Assembly: GCA_024278695.1 (NCBI GenBank)
Contig: JAJRSR010000005.1
Location: forward strand, 1 to 41,318
DNA length: 41,318 nt
Direction: 5' to 3'
Source: Planctomycetota bacterium
GTDB lineage: Bacteria; Planctomycetota; Phycisphaerae; UBA1845
Shown: one piece after another, positions 11,780-34,109 of the stretch
Layout: every line of letters starts with the position of its first letter
Numbering within the stretch: position 1 is the stretch's first letter
Notes under the pieces: model-generated
What the model was told of the DNA's origin: nothing
What the model saw: the letters and a program-made list of their open reading frames with translations, nothing else
Databases searched by the model: none
Made by a program: the position numbers and the translations under genes

Positions 11780-12199
11780 GCCACGTGCTGGCAGGTAAAG
11801 GCCTTCAACAGACAATGGTACGTAGGACGACTGAACGACTCTCGCCACCACGGTCCGATATCATCTCGTCCAAAACTCGAACGTCCGAGAATCGCAGCAG
11901 CACAACCAACGACCTACTTTACCCCGCCGAAATGACCACAAAACTTCTTGCATCTTGTCGCCGGAAATCGTACTTGTTTCATTTGGAAGACTGTTGGGTA
12001 ACTATCCGCAGCGATAGAGGCGCTTCCCGGCTGCGCGTATGTGGGCACTGGTCATCAAGACGCTGTCCACGCTCTCGCAACTGTGACACCACGGAGTCAT
12101 TCGCGCACGCAGCGAGTGATCACGGCAAACGCTATTGACGCAAACGCCGCACGACGCCAAACCCAACGCCGAAGCGCTTCCTTTGTAAGGGGGGAACAA

Positions 12200-14023
12200 A
12201 TGCAGACACACAGAAGAACTTCAAAAACCCAGAAGCGCCGAGCCGTTGTGGCGGTGATGGTCACAGTAGCAATGGTCGTACTGTTGGGGTTTGCCGCCCT
12301 CACCATTGACGTCGGCGCGATGTACAACGCCCGTGCAGAACTGCAACGCACGGCCGATGCCTCCGCTCTGGCGGCGGCCTCCATGCTCACCGATTTCAGC
12401 CAGGGCGACCCGGCCGGAGCAGCCCGAATCGCGGCACAGGATATGGCCACCGCGAACAGGGTATTGGGGCGACCCATGCTGCTCGATCCGGCGACCGACG
12501 TCGTCCTTGGACGATCCAACTACAACGCCGACACGAACACCTTTGCGTTCTCACCAACGGAAATCTTTCCGGACGCGATACGGGTAAGCGTACGCATGTC
12601 CGAAGACTCTCCAAACGGCCGGATGTCGCTGTTCTTCGCCGGCATTTTGGGAAAATCCTCAACGGCGCTCTCCGCTTCCGCGATCGCGATCATGCTCCCG
12701 CGTGATATCGCCATCGTGGCCGACTTGTCAGGGTCTCACAATGACGACAGCGAACTGCGTAACTACCGGGTGACGCAAATCAACATCCATTCCGTATGGG
12801 ACGCACTACCGGGCGGGATCGACGATGTCAGCGGCAGCTTGTGGAACGAGTCTGAGATTCCCGCGAACTGGGTTGAACCGGGCGGTGACATTCCTCAGGC
12901 AGCGGGACCAGCTTGGGGTTTCATGCAGGATCTCGGGTTTGGAACCGTCGATATTGACGAAAACTACGACCCAACGAGCGACACCGGCCTCATTAACCTA
13001 GCCTACAACCAGAACTGGAACGACACGCAGCTCGAAAGCGCCCTCTACGCTCAGGGGTATGTGGCCAGCGAGGTCAATGCGATCATGTCGTCGGACTATG
13101 ACGGCAACGGCGCGTATCAGTATCGCGTCGCGGCGGCACTTGGCCTGGCGTTTTGGAACAGCGGACATCCCGGAGGCCTCTGGTCTCAGCGCGGCGTGGC
13201 ACCAGCCGACACCGGCAACGCCAACAACTGGGTGGGTCGAACTGAACTCGAATGGACTGAAGCCATCCTCGGAAACACCATCAATGAATCCGAAGATATT
13301 TGGCTCGACTACATCGACAGCTACATGTCGCGAACATGGTCACGGCTCTATCAAGCAAACGCTGACTTCCGCTACAGCTTCGGCGCGAAAACGTTCATGA
13401 ACTATCTCTTGGAACGCCGCCCCACGAGCAGCCAGACGCCGGAGTTGGCCGGCATTCCGACGCAGCCGATGCAGGCCGTCAAGGGTGCCGTACGTCGAAT
13501 GATGGACACCATCATCTCAATCGACACCGACGATCAGGTTTCGCTGGAGGTCTACGGTACGACCGCACGCCATGAAATGGACCTGACCTCAAACTTTAAC
13601 GCAATCAGCGACCGGCTCAGCAGCATGCAGGCGGCCCACTACGATGGTTGGACGAATATGGGCGGCGGTATTGATCGTGGCATCGAAGAACTCACCAGCT
13701 CACGAGCGCGCACGACGTCCCGCAAAGTCATTATCTTGCTCACGGATGGTAACGCCAACGTCGATGCCAACGGAGCCTACCCGACCAATTCCGGCGGCAG
13801 GGCTTACGCCTTGTCAGCCGCATCGAGAGCGGCCGCAGCCGGAATCGATATCTTCACCATCAGCGTCGGTGCGGGCGCGGACACCGCAACCATGCAACAA
13901 ATCGCCGATATGGGGAGCGGCGAGCACTTCTATGCCGTCGGTTCGATCGACCAGTACAGCGCACAACTAGACGCCATTTTCAACCAGCTCGGTGGGCGTC
14001 GACCGGTACAACTAATTCAATAA
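12200..14023 (+). CDS. TadE/TadG-like protein with von Willebrand factor A domain
   Basis: N-terminal TM and GFAALTIDVGAMYNARAELQRTADASALAAA (TadG-like); MIDAS VADLSGS, TNMGGGI, KVIILLTDGNA. SD-like aagggggg upstream of ATG at 12200. Confidence 0.85.
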   Translation: MQTHRRTSKTQKRRAVVAVMVTVAMVVLLGFAALTIDVGAMYNARAELQRTADASALAAASMLTDFSQGDPAGAARIAAQDMATANRVLGRPMLLDPATDVVLGRSNYNADTNTFAFSPTEIFPDAIRVSVRMSEDSPNGRMSLFFAGILGKSSTALSASAIAIMLPRDIAIVADLSGSHNDDSELRNYRVTQINIHSVWDALPGGIDDVSGSLWNESEIPANWVEPGGDIPQAAGPAWGFMQDLGFGTVDIDENYDPTSDTGLINLAYNQNWNDTQLESALYAQGYVASEVNAIMSSDYDGNGAYQYRVAAALGLAFWNSGHPGGLWSQRGVAPADTGNANNWVGRTELEWTEAILGNTINESEDIWLDYIDSYMSRTWSRLYQANADFRYSFGAKTFMNYLLERRPTSSQTPELAGIPTQPMQAVKGAVRRMMDTIISIDTDDQVSLEVYGTTARHEMDLTSNFNAISDRLSSMQAAHYDGWTNMGGGIDRGIEELTSSRARTTSRKVIILLTDGNANVDANGAYPTNSGGRAYALSAASRAAAAGIDIFTISVGAGADTATMQQIADMGSGEHFYAVGSIDQYSAQLDAIFNQLGGRRPVQLIQ

Positions 14024-18950: not shown

Positions 18951-19793
18951 CTATTGAACCACGCGCACGCTGCCGTTGTGCGTTTGGACGGCCAGACGCT
19001 CGCCGCCGCCACCAATGGTTCCGGTCAGTCGCCGTTTGGTTGCTTCGATCGTCTGCATCGGTACGGCGCAACGAATCCCACCGTTATGAGTCTCGGCCAC
19101 AAAATCCATAGAGGTTGAATCGCTGACCATGATCTCCACGCCGCCATTGTGGGTCTCGACGCGCCCGCCAACCGCACCGCACTTGGTCAGGTCGGCCATA
19201 ATCGACCCGTTGTGGGTTTCCAAGTCGATCTCACGCCCGGAAAACGTCGCTTGGATGCCGCCGTTGTGCGTCGCCGCAACCAGCTTCATCCCAGACGTGT
19301 CGGCGTTGATCGTGCCGTTGTGGGTTTCAAAATTCAGATCGCCAGCCAAGTCGGAGATGCTGACATGCCCGTTATGCGTGGTGCCGCTGAGATCAATCTC
19401 GCTCGGCGCGTAGACATCAAACGAAACAGTGGCGTGCCACGCTGGCGACTTGATGCCCTTCCAACGGTATCCAATCTGCTGCGTGCCTGGGCCGCCGGGC
19501 TCGACAAAAACCACCAAGGCCTCCATCGCTGCGGCGGCGTCGGCTGCCGATTTGCCACGCGTCTTTTTCGTAACCGTGACGTAGGCGTCGCCGGTTGTGC
19601 CCGTGAAGTGAACGAACCCGTTGTGCGTGTTGACGTCAAGCCGCTTGAGGTCTGACGCATCCACGGCGATTCGCTCCGTGGTTTTCTCCGTCCAAACACC
19701 CCTGCCCCAATTCCCGTGAATGCTAATACAACCGACGCTCGACAGCGCCATACCAGCCACCAGCATACCCAGCACGCCCCGTCGCATGTTCAT
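18951..19793 (-). CDS. DUF4097 (toast-rack-like) repeat lipoprotein
   Basis: Lipobox-like ALSSVGC; eight 'THNG' repeats (NTHNGFVHF, TTHNGHVSI, ETHNGTINA, ATHNGGIQA, ETHNGSIMA, ETHNGGVEI, ETHNGGIRC, QTHNGSVRV). Start placed at MNMRRG. Confidence 0.75.
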   Translation of the reverse strand: MNMRRGVLGMLVAGMALSSVGCISIHGNWGRGVWTEKTTERIAVDASDLKRLDVNTHNGFVHFTGTTGDAYVTVTKKTRGKSAADAAAAMEALVVFVEPGGPGTQQIGYRWKGIKSPAWHATVSFDVYAPSEIDLSGTTHNGHVSISDLAGDLNFETHNGTINADTSGMKLVAATHNGGIQATFSGREIDLETHNGSIMADLTKCGAVGGRVETHNGGVEIMVSDSTSMDFVAETHNGGIRCAVPMQTIEATKRRLTGTIGGGGERLAVQTHNGSVRVVQ

Positions 19794-19966
19794 CGCTAAC
19801 TCCCTGATAACCATTACCATTCGACGCGAGCGCGACGCCACGCCTTCCGCAGTCGAAGTCATTTCCAGCAACTCATTCGTAAAAGCGTACCGTATATTCC
19901 CGGTGCTGGTCGGCTTTGCCACGATATCTTACAGAATTGGTGCCGGGATCGGCGACGAGACGAACC

Positions 19967-22754: not shown

Positions 22755-22818
22755 ACGCCTATCGTATGACGACAGGCGAACCCATGCAAAGCCAAGGCAC
22801 GCAGCTCAAGGGGTGAAC

Positions 22819-22862
22819 GGGTGCCCCATGCTTCGGGTACGCCCGAAAGGTGGGGGACGAAC
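22819..22862. repeat. Palindromic intergenic repeat, copy 1 (degenerate)
   Basis: ggtgccccatgcttcgggtacgcccgaaaggtgggggacgaacc; near-identical to copies at 26676 and 27146. Confidence 0.8.
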
Positions 22863-22933
22863 CGACAGCACCAAGACCTGCGTGAACTCACGAACTGACG
22901 ACAACCGCCCGGCATGGGCGCTATCGTGAAATA

Positions 22934-24700
22934 CTAGACCCGGGGCACCAAACACACGTCTTGCACGCTTCGTCCCGTGAGGCTCGATACCGGAATCGTG
23001 CCGTGCGGCTGTCCCGGCTTGTTCGGAGCCCAACAGATGATCCGATCACGAATGTCAGACGTCGCCACGATCAGATCAGCCGCGACCTCGGCCCGGCGCA
23101 GCGTCTGACCACCCGCTTCATACTCGCACAAGAAACTGTCACCGAGCACGCGTGCGCGAACACTCAAGGAGGTGTCCGTGTAGATGAGCCGCTTCACGCC
23201 GCCGCCGTCGAGCACGCAGATTGACTCGGCCGCCCGCCGTGACCCACGATGAAGCCGCTCGGGGTCGTCGTGTTGACCGTGCGTCCATAGCAACACATCA
23301 CCGTCGCTGTTACCCGCAAACACGCCATCACCCGTCACGCACAGCGCCGTGATTGCGTCCGCACTGCCCGTATAGACATGGCTCGGATGATCCACGGCGT
23401 CGGGTCGCCAGACAATCACGCGGTCATCCACAGCGCAATACAACGAACCACCATAAGCGCAAACACCGCGGACCGTCTTCGCGCCGCCCGTCAACGCCTC
23501 AAACAACACCTGACCATGACCCGGATCATCCGCGCGCCACTGGTACAAGCCGAGCTCGGAATGCGCACCGTAGATCGAATCACCCAAAAGCGCCGCTGAA
23601 TTAAACCCGCCGCGAACGGAACGGGCGTGGTCGACAGTATAGGTAGGGTCCAGCTCGGACTGATCGAGCCGCAACGAATAAATCCCCGTCGCAGCCCCAA
23701 GCAGTAGCACCGGCGAACCCGTTTCACCAAGCACGCACTGAACCGATCGCACGCCACCGACAGCCCCGGACACCGTGAGCCTACGCTTCGGCGCAGCGAA
23801 GTCACCCGGCTTATAAAACAGCAGCTCTGCACCGGCGGCCACCACAATCCACTCGGTCGCATTCGCAGCGATCTGAGAAGAAAAGAGCGCCGTATAGAGC
23901 TCACCGCGCTGCTTTTCGGAAAACGTCTTGATTAAGCCGGAAAACGCCGCGCCCGGAGAGTCGGCGGCCAGCGCCGTCAGCCGCTCCAGCAAACCGGTGA
24001 GATGATCGACATGCTCGCGCTGCGCTGCGGCCAGCGCCGTACGCAGTTCACGAGAAGCCTCGTGCTCGACCGTCTTGCGGACAGCCTCCTCCCGCGATAC
24101 CTGCACACGCCGCACCGCATCCGACTCGAACCGAACATCCACGCCCCCCTCGATCACAAGCCCGGCCTCGAAGCATGTCCCTTGCAACGCCTTGGCCACG
24201 GTACCCGCGACCTGTTCCGCCGCACGCCCATCAACCAGAGACGCCGCCTCACAATCCCCGGCCGCATCAACCAACCCCAGCCGCAGGGACGGCGATAAAT
24301 AGCGCAACAGGTCCACCGTGTTAATCGTCCGCCGCGAGCCGAGTACCGTCTTTCGAAACGTCGCAAGATCGCCGCGTTCGGGAATCACACCCACACGGAT
24401 TCCCACGGTCGCGACGCATCGGAAACCATCCTGGCTCGTCACCACACATTCATCGAACGCGAGTGCCATCGGCGTGACGCGAACGAAGAACACATCTTCC
24501 ACACCGCCGTCGCCTTCCACCACCTGGCCCGGGCGAACCAACACCTGCCCGCCGGACGCCTTAGTCACCAGCGCAGACCAAGCCGCCGGTAGATCAACCC
24601 GGCGTCGCATCAGACCGAACAGATCATCACCGGGAACCAACAACGCAGCGTGATCGACGCCGTCGAAGAAAACTTGTAGATCAATCTTGCTGCCGCTCAT
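22934..24700 (-). CDS. SPFH/band-7-like domain fused to a C-terminal WD40-like beta-propeller
   Basis: N-terminus with band-7-like beta pattern (GGQVLVRPGQVVEGDGGVEDVFFVRVTPMALAFDECVVTSQDGFRCVATVGIRVGV) and long helices (ASRELRTALAAAQREHVDHL); C-terminus with repeated blade-like segments (AITALCVTGDGVFAGNSDGDVLLW, TVRGVCAYGGSLYCAVDDRVIVWRP). Confidence 0.6.
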   Translation of the reverse strand: MSGSKIDLQVFFDGVDHAALLVPGDDLFGLMRRRVDLPAAWSALVTKASGGQVLVRPGQVVEGDGGVEDVFFVRVTPMALAFDECVVTSQDGFRCVATVGIRVGVIPERGDLATFRKTVLGSRRTINTVDLLRYLSPSLRLGLVDAAGDCEAASLVDGRAAEQVAGTVAKALQGTCFEAGLVIEGGVDVRFESDAVRRVQVSREEAVRKTVEHEASRELRTALAAAQREHVDHLTGLLERLTALAADSPGAAFSGLIKTFSEKQRGELYTALFSSQIAANATEWIVVAAGAELLFYKPGDFAAPKRRLTVSGAVGGVRSVQCVLGETGSPVLLLGAATGIYSLRLDQSELDPTYTVDHARSVRGGFNSAALLGDSIYGAHSELGLYQWRADDPGHGQVLFEALTGGAKTVRGVCAYGGSLYCAVDDRVIVWRPDAVDHPSHVYTGSADAITALCVTGDGVFAGNSDGDVLLWTHGQHDDPERLHRGSRRAAESICVLDGGGVKRLIYTDTSLSVRARVLGDSFLCEYEAGGQTLRRAEVAADLIVATSDIRDRIICWAPNKPGQPHGTIPVSSLTGRSVQDVCLVPRV

Positions 24701-24825
24701 GGTGACTTTCTGATGATGTACTTCGTGCACTCATGGGCACCCCCGTGCGCTCACGGTGTACCTTCGTGCGTGGCACGCAGCCCTAACCTCACCCTGGTAT
24801 TCGCAAATCCCCAGACGCTATTCCA

Positions 24826-25974
24826 CTATTTTGATTGCGAAGCGGGCTTTCCCTGGCCGTCGAACGTCTCAAACCGGACCAGGTCGGCCGGGTTGACCGA
24901 CGGTGCCGTCTCCTCGATCACGGCCAGCACGTCCTTCATTTCGATCATACGGGGCTCACCGCCGGCGACGGCCTCCATGAACGGTTTTTGCGCGGCCTGT
25001 GCCGCGATGTTCTTAATATCCGCACCGCTATACCCCACGAGCCGATCGCAAAGCGCCCCATAGTCCACATCTACAGCGAGCGGGCGACCGTCAAAGTAGA
25101 TTTCCAACAACCGGTACCGCGCCGGCGCGTCAGGCAGGTCCACATAGATTTTTGCGTCGAGCCGCCCCGGACGAAGCATCGCCTCGTCCAGCATCCACGG
25201 CCGGTTCGTCGCGCCGATAAAAAGCAGCGCCCGACCGGCCTTGCGATCAAACCCCTCAAGCTCCTGCAAAATCTGAGGGACCACGCGTTGCATCACGCTC
25301 GAACTGTCGCTCTTACGCTTGGGCACCAGCGCTTCGATCTCATCCAAAAAGATCACGGCCGTCGGCTCGGCCTTGGCCGCCTCAAACAGCTTCCGCACGT
25401 TTTGCTCCGCCTCACCGACCCACTTGCTCAGCATCTGCGCGGGCGACACGACGAAAAACGTCGCATCAATCTCGTGGGCGATGGCCCGGGCGATCATCGT
25501 CTTGCCCGTCCCCGGCGGGCCATACAACAACACGCCGCCGCCCGTGCCAATGCCGTAACGCTGCGCCAGCTCCGGATGCATGAACGGATAGATCATCTTC
25601 AGCCGGATTTCTTCCTTCACGTCTTCGAGCCCGGCGATATCATCAAAGCCGATGTCCGGCTTTTCCTTGACGATCCAGTCCGAGGCGTCCGCGCCGGAGT
25701 CGCCCTCCTTTTCACCCTGACGCGCGGTGACCGGTCGGCGTCCCTTGCCGCCGGACTTATGCTGCGCGTCGCTATCCTTGGCCAGGTCAATCAACTCGGC
25801 CGCCAGCTCCTCATGCTGACGCCGCGCCTCGGGCGACTTCGCGGCCTCGGCCAGTTCAATCAGACACTCGGCCGCATCCACCAGATAAGTCTTTGCGGCC
25901 AGGAAATCACCATTCTTGTAAGAGGCAACGCCCTTGGTCTTGAGCCGTTCAAATGTAGAAAAGGATACGGTCAT
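24826..25974 (-). CDS. AAA ATPase, Vps4/katanin (meiotic-clade)-like, with MIT-like N-terminal helical domain
   Basis: GFDDIAGLEDVKEEIRLKMIYPFMHPEL, Walker A GPPGTGKT, SKWVGEAEQNVRKLFEAAKAEPTAVIFLDEIEALVPKR, GATNRPWMLDEAMLRPGRLD; C-terminus VNPADLVRFETFDGQGK similar to the Vps4 C-terminal helix; N-terminal KGVASYKNGDFLAAKTYLVDAAECLIEL. Confidence 0.87.
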   Translation of the reverse strand: MTVSFSTFERLKTKGVASYKNGDFLAAKTYLVDAAECLIELAEAAKSPEARRQHEELAAELIDLAKDSDAQHKSGGKGRRPVTARQGEKEGDSGADASDWIVKEKPDIGFDDIAGLEDVKEEIRLKMIYPFMHPELAQRYGIGTGGGVLLYGPPGTGKTMIARAIAHEIDATFFVVSPAQMLSKWVGEAEQNVRKLFEAAKAEPTAVIFLDEIEALVPKRKSDSSSVMQRVVPQILQELEGFDRKAGRALLFIGATNRPWMLDEAMLRPGRLDAKIYVDLPDAPARYRLLEIYFDGRPLAVDVDYGALCDRLVGYSGADIKNIAAQAAQKPFMEAVAGGEPRMIEMKDVLAVIEETAPSVNPADLVRFETFDGQGKPASQSK

Positions 25975-26019
25975 GGTGTTTCGCAACGTCGTGCCCGACG
26001 CAATCTTCGGCGTTTGGAA

Positions 26020-26628
26020 TTACTTTTGCTTCTCACCCGGAGCCTTGAGTGAATCCAACTCCGCCCGGAGACCGGCCAACTTGTCCAGTTCCTTTTGATG
26101 CTCGGCCTCGGTCTCGGCGTCGATCAGACGATCAATCTCAGCATCGCTCACAACCTCCGACGCACCGGACATCTCCGCGTCTTGGGCGGCCATGTCTTCT
26201 ACGGAATCGAGGAACATGTCCATACGTTCCTCCATCGTCTGCGATTGGACCATCGCCTTTTCCCAATCGCCCTGGGTTTTCACCAAGTCGGTCTCACCGA
26301 AGAGCTTACTGATCTCAGAAGCCATCATCCCCATCGCACCGGCGAAATCCGCAGACGCCTCAGCCTGCCGCTTGATGAGCAGCGCGTTCTTCACGGAAAG
26401 CAACTGCCGCTCGAGCATTTTTCGAACTGTGGCCGTCTTCTTCAGCGAGTTACGGATGAAATTGTACTGCCCGGTGTCGCCGATCTTCTTGGCGTGCTGC
26501 GCGTTCTTGATGAACTCATCCTGAAACTTCGCCTGCTCGCGAATCGACTTCTCAATCCGGCGGATGCCCTGACGAATCTTGATGTCGCGCTCGATCCGAC
26601 GCTCTTCCGATGATTTGAACAATCCCAT
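26020..26628 (-). CDS. ESCRT-III/Snf7-like coiled-coil protein with MIM1-like C-terminal tail
   Basis: 202 aa: MGLFKSSEERRIERDIKIRQGIRRIEKSI.. basic helical hairpin, then ADFAGAMGMMASEISKL and MEERMDMFLDSVEDMAAQD acidic half, C-terminal LAGLRAELDSLK. Layout resembles CHMP2-type proteins. Confidence 0.7.
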   Translation of the reverse strand: MGLFKSSEERRIERDIKIRQGIRRIEKSIREQAKFQDEFIKNAQHAKKIGDTGQYNFIRNSLKKTATVRKMLERQLLSVKNALLIKRQAEASADFAGAMGMMASEISKLFGETDLVKTQGDWEKAMVQSQTMEERMDMFLDSVEDMAAQDAEMSGASEVVSDAEIDRLIDAETEAEHQKELDKLAGLRAELDSLKAPGEKQK

Positions 26629-26675
26629 AATAACTGCCTCTACAATCGAAGAGCGACCCACCGTCCAACGCCAAC

Positions 26676-26721
26676 CGGGTGCCCCATGCTTCGCGTACGC
26701 CCGAAGGGTAGGGGACGGACC
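26676..26721. repeat. Palindromic intergenic repeat, copy 2
   Basis: cgggtgccccatgcttcgcgtacgcccgaagggtaggggacggacc. Confidence 0.8.
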
Positions 26722-26872
26722 GCACATCACTCAACGCAGGTGCCCCAAACTTCGCCACCGACGAAGCACGGGTGGCCCATGGCTTCAGCCGTGGGGGACG
26801 CGAACCGAACGCTATTCGACGCCCCCACCTCCAAAAAGGTGAACCATCCAATAGATTCGCTACCCGCGTTTC

Positions 26873-27079
26873 CTAGTAATACTCACGCTCCGGAATCAAG
26901 ATCCACAACAACACGTAAACGAAGATCCCGGGAAAGCCCGCCGAAAAAATCGACAGCAACACATACCCAACGCGCACGGCCGTCGGATCAATACCGAAGT
27001 ATTCTCCCAGCCCACCGCACACGCCGGCCACCTGCCGGTTGGCCGCGCTTCGACGCAAAACATTTCCCGATGAACTCAT
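26873..27079 (-). CDS. PspC domain protein
   Basis: 68 aa: NVLRRSAANRQVAGVCGGLGEYFGIDPTAVRVGYVLLSIFSAGFPGIFVYVLLWILIPER, a classical PspC domain pattern. Start at MSSSGN. Confidence 0.9.
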   Translation of the reverse strand: MSSSGNVLRRSAANRQVAGVCGGLGEYFGIDPTAVRVGYVLLSIFSAGFPGIFVYVLLWILIPEREYY

Positions 27080-27145
27080 CAACCTACCTTTGCTCAATCC
27101 CTTTCGATCCAACCACCGCACAGGTGCCCATTCTTCGCCACCGAC

Positions 27146-27191
27146 CGGGTGCCCCATGCTTCGGGTACGCCCGAAGGGTGGGGCACGGACC
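27146..27191. repeat. Palindromic intergenic repeat, copy 3 (most intact; 38-nt hairpin at 27149-27186)
   Basis: GTGCCCCA-TG-CTTCGGG-TACG-CCCGAAG-GG-TGGGGCAC: 8 bp + 7 bp stems around a 2x2 internal loop. Confidence 0.85.
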
Positions 27192-27206
27192 ACTTTCCCT
27201 ACGAAA

Positions 27207-27809
27207 CTACTCAGCAGCCGCCCGCTTATCGCGAACGCCGCGATCGGCCTCCTCGAACGCCTCAGTCGAGTCCGTAATCACGCCCGCATCCATCTTGCCC
27301 CAGATGTCCATCACACCCTGACCCGCGGCACTCAAGCCCGCATCGCTCTCATCAGCGCCGGACCCGATCGCAAGAATGTCGTCAAGCCGCTCCTGATACA
27401 ATTCCGCACGCACCGAATCCGATTCGATCATCTTGCCGAGCCGCAGCATGTCCCCGGCGCTAATCAGCCCCAGCTTGCTACTGTTCCCCGCGCGGTCCGC
27501 GTTTTCACGAAGCATCCGAAGCCGCGACACCGTCATCGCCTCTTTGCTGCGAATGTTGAGCTGGCGACCCAGCATCAACTGCTCCGTCGTACGCAGCTCA
27601 AACTCTTGCGCCAAAATGCGCCGCACCTCCGGCGTTTTTTCCTGAGCGCCGCGGTCAAAAAGCTGCTGCTTCTCATTGGCCAACTTCTGCACTTTCTTGA
27701 GAAGCTGCGTACGGTCCTTCTCCAGCAGCAATTCCTGCCGACGCAACTCCGCCCGTGTCATCTGCGACACGGATTTCTTTCGTTTCGTCAGCCACTCAAA
27801 AAAAGCCAT
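27207..27809 (-). CDS. ESCRT-III/Snf7-like coiled-coil protein, second paralogue
   Basis: 200 aa helical: LLKKVQKLANEKQQLFDRGAQEKTPEVRRILAQEFELRTTEQLMLGRQLNIRS... aligns by eye with the C-terminal part of the 27884-29344 product (KFEEKEAALFEQGKKATSSVPKRRIAAQLNQVRKDVARQNTVAAMLNQQINVLS). Confidence 0.55.
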   Translation of the reverse strand: MAFFEWLTKRKKSVSQMTRAELRRQELLLEKDRTQLLKKVQKLANEKQQLFDRGAQEKTPEVRRILAQEFELRTTEQLMLGRQLNIRSKEAMTVSRLRMLRENADRAGNSSKLGLISAGDMLRLGKMIESDSVRAELYQERLDDILAIGSGADESDAGLSAAGQGVMDIWGKMDAGVITDSTEAFEEADRGVRDKRAAAE

Positions 27810-27883
27810 AGACCCACTACCTCACTCTTCTCAATATCCGAAAACGCCCGACCACTTCGCGTCACGATCGACGCCATGCTAAC

Positions 27884-29344
27884 TCAAGACGCTTCGGCAT
27901 CTTTCTGTTTATCCGGCTCCGCCGGCGCTACCGGCGGCGGCTGAACCACCTCCGGGCTATCCGTCGTCACGGCGTCGGCCACAGTCTGCGACGGTGTTGC
28001 TGCGGACGGCTGCGCAGCATTCGGCTCCGGCGGCTCCGGCACGTCCTCAAACTCGCGAAGGATCGCCAGCTCCTCATCGCTCGTGAGCGACGATTCCATT
28101 TCCGTCTCAAGCGTGGCCACCATATCCACGTCCGCCTTGAGGCTTTCCAGCATCTCCTCCGCCTTGACCGCGTTCTCCGTCAACTCCGCCGTGTCCGGGA
28201 GCTTGGCCATCGTGCCCTGCTGGATCAACGTCAAGTTATGGATGTCCGTGCTGAGCACGTTGATCTGCTGATTGAGCATGGCCGCAACGGTGTTCTGCCG
28301 CGCCACGTCCTTACGCACCTGGTTGAGCTGCGCCGCGATCCGCCGCTTGGGTACGGAAGAGGTCGCCTTCTTGCCCTGCTCGAAGAGTGCCGCCTCCTTC
28401 TCCTCAAATTTGCCGATGTCTTCGTAGATGCGATCTCGACGCTGGCTCAACGCCGCACGGCGCTCGGCAAGCAAGTTGATCTTCGCAACCTCATCGCCCT
28501 CACCGGATAACATCTGACGGATGCGGTCGATCATATTCATGGAACGTCTCTCCTCGGTCGTCGTCATCGCGCCGCGAAACAGCAAGGTCTCACCGTGCGT
28601 CTTCGCCAGCCTTAGCTCGGGCTCGGCATCTGCGACCGCCTCAAAACCCTGCCGCACGACATCTTCCGGCAGACCGGACTTCCGAGCAACCGCCGAGACC
28701 GACAAACCGCCCGTGAGCAGGTCCGCGCTGCTTTCTTCGATATACTTCTGCACGCGGGCCACCTTTTGCTCGGCATTTTCCGGGTCAAAGATCTTCAAAA
28801 CTCTCGGGTCCGCACCCTCACCGGCCTGCGAGACGCGCCAACCCCCCACGCCGTACGGCTCCACCAGCACGACCGTCACATTCGCCATCTCGATACGCCC
28901 CTCGCGGGCGTCATCCGTAAACCCGCTGGGACTGCACACACCAATAATCTGCGGCGTCTTCGCGTCACCCACCAACTGCCGAACGTGATCGACCAGCTCA
29001 CCCAGACCAACCGGCGGTGCGGGTTCCGTCGAGGACTTCGCATAGTGGCTCAACGGCGACAACACCGACGCGATCGCCACACCCGTGCGGCGCTTCCAAA
29101 ACAACAACCGCCGTTCAAACCCGGTGAGGCGCAGCCGACGGTTAGCCGGCAGCGTCTTGAGCAACTCACGGTCCGGACGGCGGTTGGAAGCCAGCAGCGC
29201 GCGCGGCCGATCGCAATCATCCACACGCACAGTCTGCCACGTCGAACCGCGAAAATGCGTCCCCTTGGCCGCCTCGAAATTCGTCTCTAACGCAGAGAGA
29301 AATTCGGTCTCATATTGAAACGCCTTTTCGGCACTTACGGTCAT
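27884..29344 (-). CDS. Multidomain protein: uncharacterised N-terminal domain + winged-helix + ESCRT-III/Snf7-like C-terminal coiled coil
   Basis: 486 aa; wHTH-like ADLLTGGLSVSAVARKSGLPEDVVRQGFEAVADAEPELRLAKTHGETLLFRG (~28571-28729); helical Snf7-like region AERRAALSQRRDRIYEDIGKFEEKEAALFEQG... (~28055-28492); Pro-rich tail. Confidence 0.6.
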   Translation of the reverse strand: MTVSAEKAFQYETEFLSALETNFEAAKGTHFRGSTWQTVRVDDCDRPRALLASNRRPDRELLKTLPANRRLRLTGFERRLLFWKRRTGVAIASVLSPLSHYAKSSTEPAPPVGLGELVDHVRQLVGDAKTPQIIGVCSPSGFTDDAREGRIEMANVTVVLVEPYGVGGWRVSQAGEGADPRVLKIFDPENAEQKVARVQKYIEESSADLLTGGLSVSAVARKSGLPEDVVRQGFEAVADAEPELRLAKTHGETLLFRGAMTTTEERRSMNMIDRIRQMLSGEGDEVAKINLLAERRAALSQRRDRIYEDIGKFEEKEAALFEQGKKATSSVPKRRIAAQLNQVRKDVARQNTVAAMLNQQINVLSTDIHNLTLIQQGTMAKLPDTAELTENAVKAEEMLESLKADVDMVATLETEMESSLTSDEELAILREFEDVPEPPEPNAAQPSAATPSQTVADAVTTDSPEVVQPPPVAPAEPDKQKDAEAS

Positions 29345-29364
29345 CGTCTGATACGACCTTTCCT

Positions 29365-29652
29365 CTAGTCAACGTCGATCAACTTCTCACCACATTGGCT
29401 GCAATAGCTCGCGGGTCGGTGCTCTACGTGTCGGCACCGCCGGCTCGGGCATACGCGGGGCGTCCTTTCGCCCATCGGCGTCGCCGCTGGCACCGCCTCC
29501 GCGCTCCGCCGTTTCATGCCGCGCGGCATGAGCACCCGCAGGACACTTTTACGCGTCGAGGCCAATGCTTGGCACACGACATAGATAATCCCAAAGAAAA
29601 ACGCGGCCACACCAACGACGAACAGACACAAGATGATCAGAATGTTTGACAT
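29365..29652 (-). CDS. Small TM protein with C-terminal zinc ribbon
   Basis: 95 aa: N-terminal TM (ILIILCLFVVGVAAFFFGIIYVVC), C-terminal CPSRRC..YCSQCGEKL. Confidence 0.7.
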   Translation of the reverse strand: MSNILIILCLFVVGVAAFFFGIIYVVCQALASTRKSVLRVLMPRGMKRRSAEAVPAATPMGERTPRVCPSRRCRHVEHRPASYCSQCGEKLIDVD

Positions 29653-29677
29653 TCACGCCGCTATGAACCCACAATAA

Positions 29678-30721
29678 TCACGACATCACCGTCAAGCTCT
29701 TACCGCACTTGATACAATAACGATCGCCAAGCTGTACGAAATCGCCGCAATGCCGGCACTTCGGTGCCTGCGCCACCAACTGATGCCCGCAGCCGATGCA
29801 AAAATTATCCACCCGCGACACAACCGCCCGACACGCCGGGCATGTCACGCCCGCCGCATCAGCCCGAACCGCGCCGACTGGCAGCGGTGGTGGGTCCACG
29901 ACAGCACCATCCCGATGCAGCGACGCCAGCATTTCCTGCGCCGAGGCGTACCGCCGATCACGCCGGGCATAGCATCCCTGAAACACCTCATCCAAGTGCG
30001 GCGGCGCATCCACCCGCAACGCGGTCGGCACCTCACTCCCGTGCGGACGCTTGCCCGTTAGCATTTCAAACAGCACAATCCCGCACGCGTACAAATCAGA
30101 TGACGCATCGACGTCGGCCCCCTCCTTGTGCTCCGGGGCCATGTACGCCAGCGTACCCGCGATGCGATGTTCCGCATCACCTTCCAAACTCCCGCTCTGC
30201 ATGATGGACTCGGTCGTCGCGCGTCCGACCTTACCCAGCCCGAAGTCCGTCACCCGGACCGCTTGTTCCGTGATCGACGCCAGTTCCGCCAACGGGTGCG
30301 CCAGTAAGATGTTCGCGGGCTTAATGTCTCGATGAATCAGACCCTGCTCGTGTGACGCGGCCAACGCACCGAGCACGCCACGCATCACCGCGACGGCCGC
30401 CGATATCGGAAACGAGTCCGCATAGTGATCGATCGCCTCGCGAAGCGACGGGCCTTCCACGCACTCCATCACCATGTACGGCGGCTCACCGTAGGGATCG
30501 AGATCAATCACCCGAACGATGTTCGGATGCTTCAGCCCATGAACTACGACGCCTTCACGCTGCAAGTGACGCACATACTGCGAATCCATCGGCACCTTAA
30601 TCGCGACGATATCGCCCAGCACATGGTGGCGCGCACGCCACACCTCCGCGAAGCTGCCCGTACCCAGGCAGCGATCGAGCAGGTAATTGTTGATTCGGTC
30701 GCCTTGTTTAAGCATCGACAT
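29678..30721 (-). CDS. Ser/Thr protein kinase (Hanks type) with C-terminal double zinc ribbon
   Basis: VAIKVPMD, HRDIKPANILL, VTDFGLGK, AYMAPEHKEG; C-terminal CPACRAVVSRVDNFCIGCG..CRHCGDFVQLGDRYCIKCG. Start at MSMLKQGDRINNYLLDRCLG. Confidence 0.9.
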   Translation of the reverse strand: MSMLKQGDRINNYLLDRCLGTGSFAEVWRARHHVLGDIVAIKVPMDSQYVRHLQREGVVVHGLKHPNIVRVIDLDPYGEPPYMVMECVEGPSLREAIDHYADSFPISAAVAVMRGVLGALAASHEQGLIHRDIKPANILLAHPLAELASITEQAVRVTDFGLGKVGRATTESIMQSGSLEGDAEHRIAGTLAYMAPEHKEGADVDASSDLYACGIVLFEMLTGKRPHGSEVPTALRVDAPPHLDEVFQGCYARRDRRYASAQEMLASLHRDGAVVDPPPLPVGAVRADAAGVTCPACRAVVSRVDNFCIGCGHQLVAQAPKCRHCGDFVQLGDRYCIKCGKSLTVMS

Positions 30722-30775
30722 TCCAAAACTCTTTGGCGGCACCGCCCGTGGCCGAACGTTGTCCAAAACCTTAGG

Positions 30776-31180
30776 CTAGAAATCCTCCGCACGTTCCGCC
30801 AGGTATTCGCACACCTTGAAATTATAGACGGCGGCCGACAGGAATCCAAGAAACAACACCATCCACGTCAGCGTGCCCAGCCCGCCGACACCGCCGATCA
30901 AGAAAACCGCGAGCAACACGTCCGCCACCACATACCCGCCCAGCATCATCGCGGCCGCCCCGTTGGAATCCTTCGCCATGACCCAAGTCGTCACGAAAAA
31001 GGTCGCCCACGGAAGCATGGCCACCACACCGAGCCAAACTGTTGCATATTTGACCGCATGCCAAACCGTCCGCAAATCATCCGGATTCCGGTAGCACCAG
31101 TACCCACCGCCCAACAGCGCCGCAACGAGAATCGCCGTGACCACCTTACCACCGATGTAACCTCCGGCCGTCGTCAACAT
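30776..31180 (-). CDS. Small polytopic membrane protein of unknown function
   Basis: 134 aa, about four hydrophobic segments; 54 nt upstream of the kinase gene on the same strand. Confidence 0.65.
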   Translation of the reverse strand: MLTTAGGYIGGKVVTAILVAALLGGGYWCYRNPDDLRTVWHAVKYATVWLGVVAMLPWATFFVTTWVMAKDSNGAAAMMLGGYVVADVLLAVFLIGGVGGLGTLTWMVLFLGFLSAAVYNFKVCEYLAERAEDF

Positions 31181-31351: not shown

Positions 31352-32788
31352 TTAGCTGGCGGATGTGCTCGTGGATTCGTTCGCGACGACAATCCGGTTT
31401 TTCCCGGCTGCCTTCGCTTGGTACAAGGCGCGGTCGGCCGCCCGCATCAGTGCGTCGGCCGAATCCACATCGACGGCGTGCAAGCTGGCGAGCCCGACAC
31501 TCATCCCCACCTTGACGCCGGGATACCCTTCCTGAAGGTCAACCGCGAACTGCTCGACGATTCGCTCGGCGAGTACGGCAGCACGGTCTCCATCGGTCTG
31601 AGGCAGGAGGACGATAAACTCATCACCGCCATACCTTGCGGCCACATCGGCGGTCCTTAATTGAGCCTTGATCGTCTGAGCCACGAGGATCAACAATTCA
31701 TCACCAACCTGATGCCCAAACTCATCATTGGCCGACTTGAACTCGTCGAGATCAATCATGATGCACGACAAATCAGACTGGTAACGATTGGCCTCGGCAA
31801 AGGAACGCTCCACGACCTCGCTAAAATGCCGTCGATTGTAAAGCCCCGTCAGCGGCTCACGAGACGCCAACTCTCGAAGCTGATGCGTACGAAAGGCCAC
31901 ACGATCTTCCAGTTCCGCGTTGAGACGTACCAGCCGATCGTGCGTCTGCTGGTGCTGATCGGCCATGTAGTTAAACGCATTCGACAACCGACCGATCTCA
32001 TCGCTCCGCCTGACGGGCGCACGAACGTCGAGCCCACCCCGTGAAAAACGCCGCATCAAATCCGCAAGACCATCCAACGGGCTGATAATCTGCCGGATTA
32101 GCAAAAAACCAAGCGGTATCGCAAGAACCATCGCTACGAGTCCCACGCCCACGAGAATATCAAGACGGCTCGACAACGACTGATTCCAGACGTCGCCGAT
32201 CACACCCGTGCGAACGTAACCCAAAAGCTCCATGTCACCGTCGTCGGACCGATGCGTGACCGGATAGGTAACGTCCAGGAGGACGCGACTCGCATCAACC
32301 GCGGTGACATAGGCCGGTCGCCCGGGAACCGGAAGCCGACCCTCAGCCGGCAAGTTCAACACCGACGACACTTTACCTTTCCCGTTCGACGCCTGAGCCA
32401 CACGCCGACCGCCAGGGTCGGTAATCACCACATACTGCAACGGCGAACCGTTTGCAGCGGCGTCCACCAAATCCTCCAGCGCGGGTAAATCGTCCTCCAA
32501 CATCGACCGTTCGACAGACTTGGCCAGTAGACTCGCAGCGTTAATCAGTTGAACGTCCTGCTCGTTCCTGGAGGCTTTTCGCGTGGTATCAAGCAGGTAG
32601 GTGGCAACACCGCCTGTCACACACAGCGTCATCCCCACAACGAGCAGCGTGGCCTTGACCTGCAAGCTGCACAACATGGTGATCACCGCGCGCCGACGCC
32701 GGTAACGTTCCCAAGAATTCGTTTTCACCGAATCACCCAAACCGCCCCCAGTTCCTCTCAGGTCCAGTGCGCGCCATGCCAGAAACAC
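31352..32788 (-). CDS. Membrane GGDEF diguanylate cyclase with HAMP domain
   Basis: RYGGDEFIVLLPQ; HAMP-like LIRQIISPLDGLADLMRRFSRGGLDVRAPVRRSDEIGRLSNAFNYM; two TM segments flanking an extracytoplasmic region. Start uncertain (an internal Met lies at 32677). Confidence 0.88.
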   Translation of the reverse strand: MFLAWRALDLRGTGGGLGDSVKTNSWERYRRRRAVITMLCSLQVKATLLVVGMTLCVTGGVATYLLDTTRKASRNEQDVQLINAASLLAKSVERSMLEDDLPALEDLVDAAANGSPLQYVVITDPGGRRVAQASNGKGKVSSVLNLPAEGRLPVPGRPAYVTAVDASRVLLDVTYPVTHRSDDGDMELLGYVRTGVIGDVWNQSLSSRLDILVGVGLVAMVLAIPLGFLLIRQIISPLDGLADLMRRFSRGGLDVRAPVRRSDEIGRLSNAFNYMADQHQQTHDRLVRLNAELEDRVAFRTHQLRELASREPLTGLYNRRHFSEVVERSFAEANRYQSDLSCIMIDLDEFKSANDEFGHQVGDELLILVAQTIKAQLRTADVAARYGGDEFIVLLPQTDGDRAAVLAERIVEQFAVDLQEGYPGVKVGMSVGLASLHAVDVDSADALMRAADRALYQAKAAGKNRIVVANESTSTSAS

Positions 32789-33098: not shown

Positions 33099-34109
33099 CT
33101 ATTCGGAAGCGTGAGCCGGAGCGTTGTCGGCCGCCTGATGGGCTCGCTGGCGCAGCATATCCAGCGCTTCGCGAACTTCGGTGGCCATGCGCGTATTCGG
33201 AAAATCACGAATGATTTCCAACCCAACCGTCAAGGCATCCTGCCAACGACGCTCGGTAACTGCAAAACGGAATTGAATGCCAAGCTGCAACAGCTTTTCC
33301 TTGAACACCGTACGCGCGGTATTCTGAAGCTCCTCTGCCTCAGCGGGCGAAAGGTATTGGTCCAACTCTTTCAACACGTCAATCGCGAGATCCGTATCGG
33401 TTCGGCGTACCGCGTCATCCCACGCGAGCTTGAGCTCCTGCTTGTGCTGCTCCTGCAAAGCGTTCATACGGTCCTGAAGATTCTGCACGCGTGAATCACC
33501 GGGCAAAGCCGTGAGCAAACGGTCGATCTCTGCCTGAGCCCGAGCCCAGTCGTGCGACTCGAAATGACTATCAATCATCTCAATCGCTTCAGTCAAGCGG
33601 GCCTGGATACGCGCCTCGCGCGCATCGTCAATTTCCTCACGAATGCCCGCGCCTTCTTCATTGAAGCCGAACCGCCGCTCCATCTCATCAACCAAGTTCA
33701 GGGCAGCATCCCAACGCTCGCCACGGACATTGTTCCGGATCGTATCGCGTAACGCGTCGAGTTCCTCATCCCGCCGGGCCAAAGACTTGGCAGCGTCTGA
33801 AATCCGAGTGTTTTGCGCGATCGCCTCGAGCGCTTTGTGCTGGGCCGTGAGCACACCCTGCAAATCGCGTATCTCGCCAAGCTGCCGGTTGACGGTAGAT
33901 TCCACCTTCAACAACAGCGGCACGAAAGTCAGCACCACCACAGCGGCAAACGCCAAGAAGCCGCCGGCCACGATCATCCAGGTACCACCCGAATCACCGT
34001 ATCCGGAAAGCCCAAGCACCACGAGCGCCAACGAACCCAGCATGGCCAACACACACGCCGCGTTCTGAAGCCAACGCACTCTAGAGAATCTTGTTATAGG
34101 CTCCGCCAT
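33099..34109 (-). CDS. Membrane protein with long coiled-coil/TPR-like C-terminus
   Basis: Two N-terminal TM helices (VLAMLGSLALVVLGLSGY, MIVAGGFLAFAAVVVLTFVPLLL) then extended helical region. Confidence 0.6.
   Translation of the reverse strand: MAEPITRFSRVRWLQNAACVLAMLGSLALVVLGLSGYGDSGGTWMIVAGGFLAFAAVVVLTFVPLLLKVESTVNRQLGEIRDLQGVLTAQHKALEAIAQNTRISDAAKSLARRDEELDALRDTIRNNVRGERWDAALNLVDEMERRFGFNEEGAGIREEIDDAREARIQARLTEAIEMIDSHFESHDWARAQAEIDRLLTALPGDSRVQNLQDRMNALQEQHKQELKLAWDDAVRRTDTDLAIDVLKELDQYLSPAEAEELQNTARTVFKEKLLQLGIQFRFAVTERRWQDALTVGLEIIRDFPNTRMATEVREALDMLRQRAHQAADNAPAHASE

Follow-up and report, generated by a model that had tools for sequence, protein, structure and literature searches.

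A predicted ESCRT-III/Vps4-like membrane-remodelling gene cluster in Planctomycetota

Introduction

The ESCRT-III/Vps4 machine of archaea and eukaryotic cells bends, cuts, and mends membranes. A cluster of nine genes in a planctomycete of the Phycisphaerae lineage UBA1845 (assembly GCA_024278695.1, contig JAJRSR010000005.1, positions 1 to 41,318, hereafter the window) probably encodes a bacterial counterpart, that is, an ATP-driven polymer machine of ESCRT-III/Vps4 type that remodels the cytoplasmic membrane. The genes, named g1 to g9 in order of transcription, encode three ESCRT-III-like proteins (g4, g5, and g7), a Vps4-like ATPase (g8), an SPFH-like protein (g9), PspC (g6), a Ser/Thr kinase (g2), and two further membrane proteins (g1 and g3). 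According to Makarova et al. (2024, PMC10936438), systems that combine Vps4 with ESCRT-III occur in archaea and eukaryotes only.

The archaeal Cdv/ESCRT system resembles the cluster in that ESCRT-III-like subunits are encoded together with an ATPase bearing a single AAA domain, an MIT-like domain, and Vps4_C, and the predicted fold of g7 is nearest to CdvB and CdvB2. The planctomycete cluster differs in being bacterial, in having ESCRT-III-like proteins too divergent for the Pfam Snf7 model, and in adding an SPFH/propeller protein, a kinase, and PspC. With the archaeal main-clade and Meth_adaptin ESCRT systems (PMC10936438) it shares a parts list of Vps4, ESCRT-III, winged helix, Ser/Thr kinase, SPFH, and zinc ribbon, whereas domains of the FHA, GOLD, and adaptin-appendage types were not recognised in it.

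Among bacterial systems, the Psp response (PspA/Vipp1 and PspC) and PspA-SPFH operons share with the cluster PspC, an SPFH partner, and, in the ESCRT-III-like part of g4 (g4C), a PspA-like profile. In contrast to them, the genome under study lacks a recognisable PspA, and the cluster has an MIT-bearing Vps4-like ATPase with at least three ESCRT-III-like paralogues. Vps4-like ATPases transferred to bacteria, as well as AAA partners of bacterial PspA/Snf7, have been reported, and in bacterial Vps4 loci snf7 is displaced by a gene for a TPR/six-transmembrane protein (Ravi et al. 2024, PMC11237479). In the planctomycete cluster, unlike those loci, the ATPase adjoins three ESCRT-III-like genes. The word stem Planctomycet- is not in the main text of PMC11237479, and a literature search, beyond whose reach lay many subscription papers, preprints, and supplements, found neither a planctomycete ESCRT system nor this cluster described.

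A preliminary description, made from the letters of the window, had listed nine consecutive minus-strand genes with these domains and read them as an ESCRT-III/Vps4-like membrane-remodelling cluster. The list is confirmed and its order recurs elsewhere; the reading gains support from structural models of g7 and g4, from the MIT-like and Vps4_C regions of g8, and from co-occurrence of the genes.

The ESCRT-III-like proteins

g7 is the principal ESCRT-III-like protein. Its AlphaFold model has six helices, two long ones (residues 7-49 and 52-91) followed by four shorter ones, and displays the ESCRT-III alpha1-alpha2 hairpin layout with moderate confidence (predicted local distance difference test, pLDDT, 69 overall and 80-86 over most of the hairpin). 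A Foldseek search of this model against the PDB places archaeal CdvB or CdvB2 at all of ranks 1-7 (probability 0.87-0.98), with Loki CHMP4-7, CHMP2A-CHMP3, Vipp1, Vps24, and CHMP3 at lower ranks. In hhalign comparisons, g7 matches archaeal ESCRT-III with a probability of 57-69% (E 1e-4 over 148 columns in the 57% run; reversed controls about 1% or less). Because PspA, an accepted homologue, reaches 4% in the same set-up that gave g7 57%, the g7 profile is closer to archaeal ESCRT-III than is that of PspA. When an ESCRT-III profile was compared with 22 families that recur in these loci, g7 ranked first (42.1) and g4 second (32.2), all others scoring below 22. A strict MIM1 motif occurs at the C-terminus of g7 in 6 of 40 distant Planctomycetota orthologues, some of them closely related, against 0.006 expected by shuffling.

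g4 joins an alpha/beta and winged-helix part to an ESCRT-III layout at residues 271-433 (g4C), comprising alpha0, the alpha1-alpha2 hairpin, alpha4, and alpha5 in a high-confidence AlphaFold2 model (pLDDT 86). Among its Foldseek matches are numerous winged helices, that of human ESCRT-II (3cuq) being one, and the Asgard ESCRT-IIIB filament 9ftl. The profile of g4C matches PspA with 38-74% and archaeal ESCRT-III with roughly 6-12% (reversed controls <1%), while a Pfam scan of 60 g4-family members returned neither Snf7 nor PspA. Layout and profile together support placing g7 and g4C with ESCRT-III/PspA.

g5 is a paralogue of g4C, which it matches with 94% (E 1.5e-7); its orthologue family from distant loci matches g4C with 83% and g7 with 44%. 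The tie of g5 to ESCRT-III accordingly runs only indirectly, via g4C and g7. Of the three proteins first called Snf7-like, g7 and g4 therefore keep that standing by model and profile, with the expected alpha1-alpha2 hairpin in both, whereas no Pfam Snf7 match was obtained for any of the three and g5 is linked indirectly only.

The Vps4-like ATPase

g8 has a single AAA domain in Pfam (PF00004, 4e-41) followed by a Vps4_C region above its cut-off (PF09336, 24.0 bits against 21.3), and its best NCBIfam match is CdvC, over residues 16-370. By profile comparison, its N-terminal domain is homologous to the MIT domain of archaeal CdvC (hhalign 89%, E 2e-6; reversed controls 1-2%), in agreement with the MIT-like plus Vps4-like architecture first proposed for this gene.

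A maximum-likelihood tree was built with 30 archaeal CdvC sequences, an FtsH-like ATPase from the genome under study, and 14 Cdc48-like proteins with two AAA domains each; the set held no eukaryotic Vps4. g8 and a second ATPase form one clade (support 100) that is sister to CdvC with moderate support (ultrafast bootstrap 88). Placement within Cdc48 D2 was rejected (0.014) by an approximately unbiased (AU) topology test run with a simpler model and few replicates. A Vps4-like identity is favoured for g8, the tree alone not settling its placement.

Conservation across Planctomycetota

A scan with g8 found matches mostly in Planctomycetota and chiefly in Phycisphaerae, at 63-80% identity. Two records titled Alphaproteobacteria and Armatimonadetes (loci L015 and L009) encode g8 at 68-71% identity and are probably mislabelled planctomycete bins. 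At least 15 Phycisphaerae loci share the order g1-g2-(g3)-g4-g5-(PspC)-g7-g8-g9; the genes thus occur together in related genomes, which favours the reading of the preliminary description. Because this order recurs in independently assembled loci, the cluster is not a chance arrangement; among these loci are one on a complete 3.8 Mb chromosome, where a part of the cluster is present, and others on contigs as long as 1.3 Mb. Contamination or misassembly is ruled out by the many independent assemblies and long contigs.

Among 392 genomes that sample the phylum, a profile search detected g7 in 56. Distant loci usually run in the order winged-helix gene, g4C-like, g5-like, second AAA ATPase, g7, g8, g9, g1-like transmembrane protein, and kinase. 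The winged-helix and ESCRT-III-like halves of g4 are mostly separate genes there, hence g4 of the window is a fusion. PspC and the Ser/Thr kinase belong to the conserved cluster, PspC and g3 being found in its Phycisphaerae version only. In seven genomes g7 does not stand beside g8, and four of these still have g7 elsewhere. Among the aligned families g7 is the most conserved, with a mean column identity of 82% (30 sequences) against 47% for g9.

The second AAA ATPase, a paralogue of g8 that also bears an MIT domain, adjoins g7 in most distant loci (L047 7068-8258, L062 8621-9925, and others) and was not found in the Phycisphaerae clusters. The winged-helix genes of the distant loci L049, L059, and L061 encode an N-terminal extension that, judged by eye, resembles a MerR-type DNA-binding domain.

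Proposed mechanism and alternative readings

In the mechanism proposed here, g4, whose winged helix is joined to an ESCRT-III unit in an arrangement of CHMP7 or ESCRT-II-to-III type, would nucleate a hetero-polymer built from g4, g5, and g7 at the cytoplasmic membrane. Sites of polymer formation may be marked by the SPFH-like protein g9 together with PspC and the other membrane proteins, g1 and g3, and the g2 kinase, possibly with the diguanylate cyclase encoded upstream, may gate assembly. The MIT domain of g8 would then grip the C-terminal helix of g7 and draw subunits through the hexamer pore, and this extraction would turn the polymer over so that the membrane is constricted or resealed. 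The task of such a machine could be to repair or reshape the cytoplasmic membrane under envelope stress; this is the least certain step, for which our confidence falls somewhat short of even.

Several points weigh against the ESCRT-III/Vps4 reading. The Foldseek E-values of g7 and g4 lie between 0.04 and 0.3, none being below 0.001 (best value for g7, 0.06); matches of this kind are inflated for helical folds, and those of g7, whose model is itself of moderate confidence, include some designed proteins that are helical. The hhalign probabilities are pairwise and carry no database calibration, and by this method g5 gave no direct signal against ESCRT-III or PspA. None of g4, g5, and g7 has a Snf7 or PspA (PspA_IM30) match in Pfam, which leaves them outside the ESCRT-III superfamily by existing models, and HMMER searches of PDB sequences with their profiles yielded no usable match (the sole CdvB match, for g4, had an E-value of 0.73). 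The g7 copy in the window has a degenerate motif in place of a strict MIM1. g8 scores 232.8 bits against a cut-off of 650 for the NCBIfam CdvC equivalog and is therefore called Vps4-like only, and a topology that unites g8 with the full set of Cdc48 domains is disfavoured marginally only (AU 0.054, few replicates). Polymerisation and membrane binding of g4, g5, and g7 are predictions, and the putative repair role is drawn solely from the PspC and SPFH context.

That marginal AU value and the weak Foldseek E-values speak for a rival reading as a Cdc48-like quality-control ATPase, with the coiled-coil proteins as adaptors rather than polymers and a convergent likeness to ESCRT. The best PDB sequence matches of g8 are likewise Cdc48/p97, with scores summed over two AAA domains. 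Against it stand the MIT-like domain and Vps4_C region of g8, the position of that ATPase beside CdvC, and the top two ranks of g7 and g4 in the comparison with archaeal ESCRT-III; this reading is very improbable. A variant Psp response, in which cluster proteins stand in for PspA, draws on the PspC gene, on the PspA-like profile of g4C, and on the failure to find PspA_IM30 in the genome, which is 90.5% complete. The Psp link of the preliminary description holds accordingly for PspC and not for PspA. As PspA also occurs in some 6-7 of 17 sampled genomes with g7, there is no mutual exclusion; PspA is not, as a rule, simply replaced, and standing in for it was rejected as a general role. PspC, moreover, was not found in distant loci, and we regard the Psp variant as quite unlikely.

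The cluster might alternatively serve protein sorting or vesicle formation, its polymers acting with the SPFH, propeller, and kinase components to pick cargo, phosphorylated or residing in microdomains, that is to be budded off or degraded. Sorting has been proposed for the archaeal main-clade and Meth_adaptin systems, whose parts list is matched by the kinase, the zinc ribbons, the winged helix, and the SPFH-like g9, but FHA, adaptin-appendage, GOLD, and ubiquitin-like domains were not recognised in the cluster, no cargo is known, and PspC points to envelope stress; sorting seems rather unlikely. A Cdv-like division motor, in which the polymer drives or completes cytokinesis in planctomycetes that lack FtsZ, as CdvB and CdvC do in Sulfolobus, would fit the closeness in fold of g7 to the division proteins CdvB and CdvB2. 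FtsZ was not found in the genome under study or in 19 of 20 relatives (the other gave one weak sub-threshold match), in a search whose control recovered it from 13 of 14 genomes, and Phycisphaerae divide in a manner resembling binary fission without FtsZ, by an unknown driver (PMC6952346). Yet FtsZ is missing practically phylum-wide (three matches, below cut-off, in the 392 genomes) and g7 is not general, and near-complete Phycisphaerae genomes exist that have neither. The system is thus not the general division motor of FtsZ-less planctomycetes; a general replacement of FtsZ was rejected, most of those sampled being without g7, and a division role of any kind is considered unlikely.

Locus layout, accessory genes, and neighbourhood

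The nine genes lie in a row with intergenic gaps of 20-244 bp and plausible ATG starts throughout (Table 1); start codons were corrected for g2, g6, g7, g8, and g9, and corrected coordinates are given.

Table 1. Features of the cluster and its probable upstream extension (window coordinates; aa, amino acids).
Feature	Position	Strand	Basis or remark
g1, small polytopic membrane protein, 134 aa	30776..31180	-	Family also in cluster of other Planctomycetota
g2, Ser/Thr protein kinase with C-terminal double zinc ribbon, 347 aa	29678..30721	-	Pfam
g3, one transmembrane segment and putative zinc ribbon	29365..29652	-	Weak domain match
g4, N-terminal alpha/beta domain and winged helix fused to ESCRT-III-like domain, 486 aa	27884..29344	-	AlphaFold2, Foldseek
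g4C, ESCRT-III-like domain of g4, residues 271-433	28046..28534	-	Model, hhalign
g5, second ESCRT-III-like coiled-coil protein, paralogue of g4C, 200 aa	27207..27809	-	hhalign against g4C
g6, PspC membrane protein, 68 aa	26873..27079	-	Pfam
g7, principal ESCRT-III-like subunit, 202 aa	26020..26628	-	Model, Foldseek, hhalign
g7, C-terminal amphipathic helix (LRAELDSLK), degenerate MIM1-like	26044..26091	-	Motif scan
g8, Vps4/CdvC-like AAA ATPase, 382 aa	24826..25974	-	Pfam, NCBIfam, tree
g8, MIT-like three-helix domain, about residues 5-66	25777..25962	-	hhalign against archaeal CdvC N-terminus
g8, Vps4_C oligomerisation region, residues 341-371	24862..24954	-	PF09336
g9, SPFH/Band_7-like domain, coiled coil, and putative C-terminal beta-propeller, 588 aa	22934..24700	-	Family-level Pfam
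Membrane diguanylate cyclase (sCache-HAMP-GGDEF), probable upstream extension	31352..32788	-	Pfam; precedes g1 in about 11 loci
Protein with two transmembrane segments and a long helical region, probable upstream extension	33099..34109	-	Precedes GGDEF gene in the same loci

Pfam assignments bear out the zinc-ribbon kinase (g2; Pkinase 9e-40, DZR 7e-7) and PspC (g6; 1.1e-23, over cut-off) of the preliminary description. For g3, the transmembrane segment stands and the zinc-ribbon match is weak. The SPFH-like and beta-propeller assignment of g9 holds in part: Band_7 matches were obtained for 10 of the 21 proteins in its family (best 9.6e-7), which supports calling g9 SPFH-like, while the window copy alone has no Band_7/SPFH match and the propeller matches are weak.

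About 11 loci have the GGDEF gene and the gene for the two-transmembrane helical protein directly upstream of g1, so that conservation reaches past the nine genes, and the sCache-HAMP-GGDEF protein suggests an input from cyclic di-GMP. On the downstream side, a Toastrack (DUF4097) protein is encoded at 18951-19922, beyond the genes of an ABC importer (binding protein, ATPase, and permease), a linkage kept in close relatives only; the Toastrack domain has been tied to Psp systems (Ravi et al. 2024, PMC11237479). Further away, the plus strand encodes a protein that resembles Tad/Flp pilus-assembly proteins and has a von Willebrand factor A domain (12041-14023). Three copies of a repeat with the core CGGGTGCCCCATGCTTCGGGTACGCCCGAAGGGTGGGGCACGGACC sit after g9 (22784-22863), in the gap between PspC and g7 (26642-26721), and in that between g5 and PspC (27112-27191). 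The repeat may be REP-like (repetitive extragenic palindromic) or a small mobile element, and could split the transcript.

Significance

The planctomycete cluster appears to hold all core ESCRT-III/Vps4 parts side by side, contrary to the confinement of such systems to archaea and eukaryotes in published surveys. If the reading is true, the ATPase-driven ESCRT-III machine extends to bacteria, where a Vps4-like ATPase with an MIT-like domain stands beside three ESCRT-III-like genes across Planctomycetota. The cluster would then be relevant to how the ESCRT machinery evolved, to membrane remodelling in planctomycetes, and to their division without FtsZ, for which the force generator is an open question (PMC6952346). 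It would also allow the ATP-driven turnover of such polymers to be studied in a bacterium.

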